A DNA stretch of 64,000 nt from Streptomyces sp. MST-110588. GTDB taxonomy: Bacteria > Actinomycetota > Actinomycetes > Streptomycetales > Streptomycetaceae. Below the pieces are notes generated by a model that had not been told where the DNA came from, ran no database searches, and saw only the letters and a list, made by a program, of their open reading frames with translations. Made by a program: the position numbers and the translations under genes. How positions within the stretch are numbered: the first letter of the stretch is position 1; each line of letters begins with the position of its first letter. This document shows, in pieces, positions 51,609 to 64,000 of this stretch. The DNA lies in the NCBI RefSeq assembly GCF_022695595.1, contig NZ_CP074380.1, forward strand, positions 4,376,501 to 4,440,500, given 5' to 3'.

Positions 51609-51637
51609 TTGACCGCAGCCCATGCGGTAGGTACGCT
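51609..51637 (+). promoter_or_regulatory. str operon (rpsL) promoter
   Basis: TTGACC (51609-51614), 17-bp spacer, TACGCT (51632-51637): a strong vegetative promoter. It predicts a leader of about 190 nt before rpsL. Confidence 0.75.
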
Positions 51638-51754: not shown

Positions 51755-51780
51755 CGACACACCCGACCGCGTGGGTCGGA
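51755..51780 (+). promoter_or_regulatory. leader element shared with the S10 operon (rpsL copy)
   Basis: The core CCCGACCGCGTGGGTCGG folds as a CCGACC-GCGTG-GGTCGG hairpin and is preceded by CGACACA. The same element, differing at one base, lies 76-102 bp upstream of rpsJ (63764-63790). It begins about 77 bp before the rpsL GTG. The remaining leader (51490-51831) shows no gene. Confidence 0.7.
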
Positions 51781-51831: not shown

Positions 51832-52203
51832 GTGCCTACGATCCAGCAGCTGGTCCGCAAGGGCCGGCAGGACAAGGTCGAGAAGAACAAGACGCCCGCA
51901 CTGGAGGGTTCGCCCCAGCGCCGCGGCGTCTGCACGCGTGTGTTCACGACCACCCCGAAGAAGCCGAACTCGGCCCTGCGTAAGGTCGCGCGTGTGCGTC
52001 TGACCAGCGGGATCGAGGTCACCGCTTACATTCCGGGTGAGGGCCACAACCTGCAGGAGCACTCGATCGTGCTCGTGCGTGGCGGCCGTGTGAAGGACCT
52101 TCCGGGTGTTCGCTACAAGATCATCCGAGGCTCCCTCGACACGCAGGGCGTCAAGAACCGCAAGCAGGCTCGCAGCCGCTACGGCGCCAAGAAGGAGAAG
52201 TAA
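51832..52203 (+). CDS. rpsL: 30S ribosomal protein S12
   Basis: 123 residues, [20 protein letters not shown] to [12 protein letters not shown]12 guards decoding accuracy. The streptomycin-resistance positions are wild type: Lys in [13 protein letters not shown] and Lys in [13 protein letters not shown] start; AACCGGAGAAACG upstream serves as ribosome site. First gene of the str operon, with rpsG 2 bp downstream. Confidence 0.98.
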
Positions 52204-54994: not shown

Positions 54995-56187
<1,193 letters not shown>

Positions 56188-59434: not shown

Positions 59435-59722
59435 CAGGAAGCCTCTTCTTCCTCGGTGGTCAGGCCCTCGATCGGGATTGCCGTCCCGGCCGGGGGCCGT
59501 CGCATGTCTGTCGCATGTCTGCGAGTTGTCTCTCGCCGCCGACCCTGCCGCGCCGAACCCGCTCCACGCCAGCTTTCCCACTCGCAATCACCCAAGCGAG
59601 TGACGGCAGGGACGGCAGGGCCGGGTTGGGTACTTTCCCCTGGTTACTGGGTCTTTTACGTCCCGACGCACCGGCCCCCGGCCCCCCGGCCCCCGGTCAC
59701 GGCTCTCCGCCCCCACCCACCC

Positions 59723-63471: not shown

Positions 63472-63865
63472 CCTCGGCCATGCGCCGCTGACGAGCCGGT
63501 GTACGATCACCGGCTCGATTGGCATCGGGTCGGCATGCTATGGCACACTGTCCAGGTTGCTCGGTTGAGTGCCGATGCTGCGCGCCTCCCGCCGGGAGGA
63601 CTGGAAGCGAGTCCCAGGTATTCGTCGTTCCTCATCAGGGGCGGAAGTACGGGAATCTTCCGGGAAGCGTGAGCGGGGTACCAGCCAGGCGCCCGGTGGG
63701 TGTCCTGCCCCCACACACTCCTTCTTGAAGGATCTCCCCTGTGGAGATTTACGGGAAGGGGTGCGACACGCCCGACCGCGTGGGTCGGAGGCAGGCGGGT
63801 GCTCCTCGCGGAGCACGGCGCACCGGGTCCCAGAGCGTTACGAGAGACAGGACTACTGAGTAGCC
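63472..63865 (+). other. S10 operon promoter/leader region
   Basis: 394 bp with no gene. It should contain the S10 operon promoter; a TATGGC hexamer near 63539 is a possible -10 but its -35 spacing is poor. The leader holds the shared element at 63764-63790 and a GTGCTCC-TCGC-GGAGCAC hairpin at 63799-63816. Confidence 0.55.
63764..63790 (+). promoter_or_regulatory. leader element shared with the str operon (rpsJ copy)
   Basis: Same CCCGACCGCGTGGGTCGG core and CGACAC prefix as the rpsL leader element at 51755-51780, differing at one position. It lies about 76 bp before the rpsJ ATG, the same distance as in rpsL. Confidence 0.7.
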
Positions 63866-64000
63866 ATGGCGGGACAGAAGATCCGCATCCGGCTCAAGGC
63901 CTACGACCACGAGGTCATCGACAGCTCGGCGAAGAAGATCGTCGAGACGGTGACCCGCACTGGTGCGTCGGTCGCGGGCCCGGTGCCGCTGCCCACTGAG
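63866..64000 (+). CDS. rpsJ: 30S ribosomal protein S10 (3' end outside window)
   Basis: The first 45 residues are visible: [20 protein letters not shown] then [20 protein letters not shown], diagnostic for S10. It opens the S10 ribosomal protein operon. S10 is also NusE, the antitermination partner of NusB and NusG. ATG 63866 has only a weak ribosome site nearby (GAGAGACAGGA). Confidence 0.97.

Follow-up and report, generated by a model that had tools for sequence, protein, structure and literature searches.

The window, a stretch of 64,000 nt from Streptomyces sp. MST-110588 (contig NZ_CP074380.1), carries the str operon, headed by rpsL, and the start of the S10 operon, headed by rpsJ, each gene preceded by a copy of one short element (Table 1). 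A 26-base element before both genes had been described in the first-pass annotation and was found at both places, with one mismatch (A/G, position 7 of CGACACr...) across 27 nt including a trailing AG; the consensus of both copies is CGACACrCCCGACCGCGTGGGTCGG. The equal spacing of about 76 bp that had been claimed was wrong: the first base of the element lies 77 nt before the start codon of rpsL (GTG, 51832) and 102 nt before that of rpsJ (ATG, 63866), 78 nt being the distance from the end of the rpsJ copy to the start codon. The surrounding leaders, described as unrelated, are essentially so, apart from a short similar stretch that is visible by eye near the start codon in both.

Table 1. Elements, promoter and genes at the heads of the str and S10 operons (window coordinates). 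G000 is the window's own genome, R1 a covariance model of the element (see below).
Feature	Position	Strand	Basis
rpsL promoter TTGACC-17-TACGCT, 117 nt upstream of element	51609..51637	+	promoter pattern; aligned in 11 Streptomyces-family genomes
Element before rpsL, CGACACACCCGACCGCGTGGGTCGG	51755..51779	+	sequence; R1 41 bits at G000:C1:4428254-4428280
GACACACC, agrees with published WhiA core GAYACRCY	51756..51763	+	sequence; PMC11701221, PMC3781837
Central four bases ACCG, rpsL copy	51766..51769	+	variable among out-of-class relatives
Right half CGTGGGTCGG, rpsL copy; candidate auxiliary contact	51770..51779	+	conservation; auxiliary-motif idea from PMC11701221
rpsL (S12), first gene of str operon, GTG start	51832..52203	+	PF00164 match in G000
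Element before rpsJ, CGACACGCCCGACCGCGTGGGTCGG	63764..63788	+	sequence; R1 45 bits at G000:C1:4440263-4440289
GACACGCC, agrees with published WhiA core GAYACRCY	63765..63772	+	sequence; PMC11701221, PMC3781837
Central four bases ACCG, rpsJ copy	63775..63778	+	comparison with out-of-class relatives
Right half CGTGGGTCGG, rpsJ copy; candidate auxiliary contact	63779..63788	+	conservation; PMC11701221
rpsJ (S10), first gene of S10 operon, continues past window end	63866..64000	+	full 102 aa from locus L002; PF00338 match in G000

Only the two copies in the window contain the 18-nt core of the element, and the whole 7.9 Mb genome likewise has just two perfect matches to it, plus three places with two mismatches. 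When up to three mismatches were allowed, 18 of 100 shuffles also gave two matches, so that such a pair is not rare; its significance comes from conservation in other genomes and not from the window count alone. Two further observations were made between the operon heads. The tuf gene (EF-Tu, from 54995) has a frame shift near 56038, probably a sequence error, which puts about the last 50 residues in another frame, and positions 59435-59678 of the minus strand gave an Rfam match to the Streptomyces sRNA scr4677 (RF02673, 78.2 bits).

Distribution and position of the element

The pattern was scanned with up to two mismatches over 198 genomes of the phylum. Matches were obtained in 17, namely every class member of the sample (17/17); among the 29 matches listed, rpsL or rpsJ lay directly downstream in 27 and neither gene in two (L013, L034). 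The covariance model R1 was built from 66 distinct element copies, and its search of relatives, which the first-pass annotation had proposed as a check, found exactly two matches of at least 35.7 bits in 20 of 21 genomes (G000 and relatives; gene context checked in G000 only), the next best match scoring 31.1 bits. The single genome with no strong copies was a 79% complete assembly. Over the 198 phylum genomes (E 0.001), R1 matched in 19, of which 17 were class members; in the two others (G118, G124) the matches were weak, with neither rpsL nor rpsJ nearby. When named GTDB genomes were scanned for an exact pattern without regard to genes, at least 119 matches were obtained. Among the 119 listed, the start codon of rpsJ followed 78 after 59-193 nt and that of rpsL followed 39 after 64-161 nt, and the remaining two reached a contig end after 32 and 37 nt. 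The element precedes the same ribosomal operons in nearly all actinomycete genomes examined.

Leaders were read in 107 class genomes, hand-picked for family spread out of 124 with an rpsL or rpsJ match (213 leaders; 107 rpsL, 106 rpsJ). The element was called where at least 19 of 25 positions matched, a threshold that favours conserved positions, and was present at that level in 96 rpsL and 60 rpsJ leaders (156 copies); 57 leaders fell below it (11 rpsL, 46 rpsJ). The two operons were compared in the 106 genomes with both leaders read, which are related, so the counts are not independent. Where rpsJ followed tuf by 350 nt or less, the element stood before rpsL in 55 of 55 genomes and additionally before rpsJ in 11. 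With a gap of more than 350 and less than 900 nt it stood before rpsJ in 15 of 16 and before rpsL in 14 of 16, and where no tuf was found within 900 nt of rpsJ the numbers were 34 and 26 of 35, respectively. On the assumption that adjoining operons are co-transcribed, 104 of the 106 genomes have a copy ahead of the S10 operon, either directly or at the head of the str operon next to it. The two exceptions (G273 and G302, of one family) have the full element before neither gene; GACACGCCCGGGTTG or GACACGCCCGGGTTT is found 346-352 nt before rpsJ, with the core retained and the right part altered; GACACGCCCGGGTT stands at -352 and -346 relative to rpsJ. In that family (f80), all four rpsJ upstream regions (G264, G273, G282, G302) carry GACACGCCCGGGTT, 346-448 nt before rpsJ, and the right part at these sites is unlike the class motif.

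Promoters were sought by a strict sigma-70-like pattern (TTGACn, 16-19 nt, TAnnnT), which preceded the element in 72 of 96 rpsL leaders (26 families), compared with 0 of 96 in a reverse-strand control. Promoter and element were separated by a median of 120 nt (range 21-199 nt) in these leaders, and the rpsL copy lies within the transcribed leader in sense orientation. Before rpsJ, transcription start is less certain because the strict pattern fits only 5 of 60 leaders. Across leaders the distance from the first base of the element to the start codon is 46-253 nt. A family of small genomes (f72, 1.1-2.2 Mb) gave a model match in 45 of 61 genomes (37 of 44 better assemblies), and its rpsL leaders were readable at 26 of 30 loci. 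In one genus of this family (five loci, L292-L296), about 23 nt separate the -10 box from the element and 22-23 nt the element from the start codon. Of the rpsL leaders L299-L320 of the family, many carry CTGCTCTTTT or a close variant after the -10 box, a sequence that we take to resemble the boxA antitermination site. GTGCCTG was enriched across families in the 150 nt upstream of the rpsL element (family-weighted 11.9 of 30), and the k-mers downstream of it were mostly ribosome-binding-like purine runs.

WhiA as the candidate regulator

We read the element as a conserved, extended DNA operator of WhiA at the S10 operon and usually also at the str operon, with a probability of about 0.8. The target rpsJ is already known; binding of WhiA at rpsL is predicted. 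Both window copies fit the GACAC / GAYACRCY core. GACACrCC is present in 151 of 156 class copies (four of the remainder start with AACAC and one has GACAT), a single row departs from ACAC-r-CCCG, and the right half, CGkGGGTCGG, is conserved downstream of the core. A whiA gene (PF02650) was found in 127 of 128 class genomes, G000 included, and the G000 protein has the three WhiA Pfam domains (WhiA_N, LAGLIDADG_WhiA and HTH_WhiA). The solved chains closest to it are 8dy7_I and 8dy9_I, both named WhiA, in structures that are presumably RNA-polymerase complexes.

In M. gallisepticum, WhiA binds GAYACRCY in the promoter of the rpsJ operon, represses the operon and senses ATP, and touches an auxiliary motif downstream of the core via its endonuclease-like domain (PMC11701221). 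According to that study, most of the species with whiA that it examined have the core ahead of the rpsJ operon, as found here, and some clades have their own motif downstream of it. The right part differs, being GTTGT in M. gallisepticum and CGkGGGTCGG here. In Mollicutes, 22-40 nt separate the transcription start from the WhiA site downstream of it (PMC11701221), and the element is likewise downstream of the rpsL promoter.

In S. venezuelae, a WhiA ChIP-seq peak was reported 75 bp before the rpsJ start codon (adjusted P 4.5e-11 in vegetative growth, 8.0e-6 at midsporulation), and rpsJ and other translation targets were lower in the whiA mutant (PMC3781837). Both the rpsJ target and the GACAC motif are shared with the element. 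In 11 Streptomyces-family genomes, all other than S. venezuelae, the element centre was located 71, 71, 73, 74, 74, 76, 76, 76, 81, 89 and 91 bp before rpsJ (median 76 bp), against 75 bp for the peak; in S. narbonensis the distance was 73 bp. ChIP peaks are coarse in position. Since GACACrCC matches the DNA core of WhiA and the published peak agrees in position with the rpsJ copy, a DNA regulator is favoured over an RNA site.

Several points were counted against this assignment or limit it. The rpsJ row of PMC3781837 lacks a value for sporulation onset, the stage at which WhiA does most of its binding. GACAC has 15,116 copies on both strands in S. venezuelae (PMC3781837), so the core alone proves little. 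In family f72, AACAC replaces GACAC in 9 of 26 rpsL copies. For infA and rpsH, which are also on the ChIP list, no GAYACRCY was found on either strand in the 19.9 kb from rpsJ onward in G000, nor was GACAC or GTGTC found in the 300 nt preceding infA. The gene rpsL does not occur in the main texts of PMC11701221 and PMC3781837, and neither the rpsL site nor the 24-bp extended motif was found in the texts searched; searches by leader terms and by the letters of the element retrieved no paper.

Relatives outside the class were sought in 45 rpsL upstream regions (25 best-scoring loci and 20 hand-picked, from 115 genomes with a match). GAYACRCCCG-N4-CGKGG (15 bases) was matched at 13-15 of 15 positions in 12 of them, from families f23, f37, f44, f13, f36 and f17 (shuffle frequencies 0 to 0.04); the other 33 scored 12 or less. 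The central four bases vary freely in the 12. GAYAC is kept in four (three of f23, one of f37), and two f23 genomes and one f37 genome have GATACGCCCG-N4-CGTGG before rpsL, with a C/T change that the core permits. The remaining eight keep CCCG-N4-CGTG but have GGAAC, GGGAC, GAAAC or TAAAC in place of GAYAC, and this weighs most heavily against reading the site as a plain WhiA core; CCCG-N4-CGTG could be an older contact or the contact of another protein. GAYACRCY alone was present in 4 of the 45 regions, where about two are expected from shuffles. Among 27 out-of-class regions upstream of rpsJ, several of which are short, two had it.

These eight relatives speak for the operator of another DNA-binding protein, one that cooperates with WhiA, such as a WhiB-type partner, or has a site overlapping a WhiA core; WhiA and WhiB are mutually required for target binding in S. 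venezuelae (PMC4850268). Within the class, however, no part of the element is more constant than the left one, and GACAC was the only motif found in the WhiB study, as far as the consulted part of PMC4850268 goes. We consider such a protein an unlikely explanation.

RNA structure and transcription elongation as alternatives

The element had been called a conserved hairpin. Its 6-bp stem, CCGACC/GGTCGG, can form (rpsL copy -11.8 kcal/mol, z -2.1; rpsJ copy z -0.4) but is not conserved as pairing. Covariation was tested for three foldings with 66 of the 99 distinct copies. In the proposed stem, 76.5% of cells were paired, compared with a shuffled mean of 77.1, leaving about 24% unpaired, and the compensatory changes expected there came to one cell only, no better than shuffles. 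An alternative 4-bp stem, CCCG/CG(k)GG with one bulged base, was 98% paired; three of its pairs are invariant and the fourth differs solely through unpaired cells, and it is uninformative because its pairs hardly vary. In the unbulged form of this stem, position 18 is G in 102 rows and T in 54 while its partner C9 is invariant. The hairpin was rejected on these results, the proposed stem showing no compensation and the two alternative foldings either hardly varying or failing to pair throughout. They remove support for an RNA stem and would not alone prove a DNA site.

No Rfam family matched the element above its gathering score. Likeness to rRNA, in terms of sequence only, was not above shuffles in the readable 3201 bases of one G000 rRNA operon (55 of 60 shuffles reached the observed score) or in E. 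coli 16S and 23S rRNA. The E. coli molecules were used because a 16S family search of G000 gave no match, compared with 13 matches for 23S; in the G000 rRNA operon region, 2400 of 5601 bases are N. Mimicry of rRNA as a ribosomal-protein site was rejected since the similarity was not above shuffles. As proposed earlier, a regulator shared by the str and S10 operons fits the evidence, while its action through an RNA hairpin or ribosomal-protein site found no compensation, Rfam match or rRNA likeness behind it.

Feedback on both operons by a ribosomal protein that binds the mRNA hairpin, perhaps L4, S10 or another product of the S10 operon, would account for a sense-strand element transcribed from the rpsL promoter, for its retention by the S10 operon where the operons separate and the str operon sometimes lacks it, and for the 98% pairing of the bulged stem. 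It is improbable in view of the stem data, the empty Rfam and rRNA searches and the ChIP evidence of a DNA-binding protein at the rpsJ spot (PMC3781837), and feedback by an S10-operon protein through mRNA was dropped in favour of WhiA. Described ribosomal-protein leader RNAs (PMC7247131, PMC11109978) are likewise found in leaders of ribosomal operons, but they are structured RNAs, whereas the element has no covariation, and the rpsJ motif of PMC11109978 comes from Peptostreptococcaceae. Separately, the Streptomyces rpsJ leader has a second conserved, foldable region upstream of the element (63585-63665), where a hairpin (CTCCC-GGGAG) can form as well as a long helix. At least five pairs of the long helix have both sides changed in some of 35 sequences (consensus fold, without a shuffle control). 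Rfam gave no match for this region, a possible genuine ribosomal leader RNA.

A signal to elongating RNA polymerase in two long operons, for anti-pausing or antitermination and independent of WhiA, would suit the free spacing of the element to promoter and start codon, its place at operon heads and the sufficiency of a single copy in most genomes with rpsJ close behind tuf, but is very improbable, as agreement with the WhiA core and with the ChIP peak would then be coincidence and we know of no elongation factor with a recognition sequence like this element.

Site layout and possible meaning for growth control

For the WhiA operator, the layout of the site was examined from its four-base centre towards both ends. 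Left and right sides are complementary at six of the first seven positions in 65-100% of rows, the fifth position being the exception, and complementarity around this centre is 0.68, compared with 0.60 or less for any neighbouring centre. Targets of LAGLIDADG endonucleases consist of two imperfect half-sites that flank an uncontacted four-base centre, and we infer that WhiA uses a similar two-half-site layout. WhiA would recognise the left part, GACACrCC, through its HTH domain and contact the conserved right part, CGkGGGTCGG, through its HEN domain. WhiA at both sites would make the output of S12, S7, EF-G, EF-Tu and the proteins of the S10 operon depend on growth phase or energy state. WhiA is a repressor of the rpsJ operon in Mycoplasma (PMC11701221), and rpsJ expression is lower without WhiA in S. 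venezuelae (PMC3781837); with an activator in one species and a repressor in another, WhiA may act in either direction here.

Specificity of WhiA beyond the very common GACAC is called open in the parts of PMC3781837 and PMC4850268 drawn on; no motif beyond GACAC was found in PMC3781837, whose authors presume further specificity determinants, whereas a 24-bp motif is described here. Marking two ribosomal operons across the class, this motif offers a concrete candidate site for WhiA specificity. A further reading, which we hold tentatively and at somewhat less than even odds, is that control of the S10 and str operons is the ancestral, near-universal task of WhiA in actinomycetes, to which sporulation was added later, and that its dead endonuclease domain supplies the specificity beyond GACAC through LAGLIDADG-type half-sites, ACrCCCG/CGkGGGT. 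WhiA is known mainly as a sporulation regulator. The motif is also present in the small-genome family f72, which we assume to be non-sporulating and in which some rpsL leaders are little more than the element. Its class-wide presence suggests an older function of WhiA, that of fitting translation capacity to growth.
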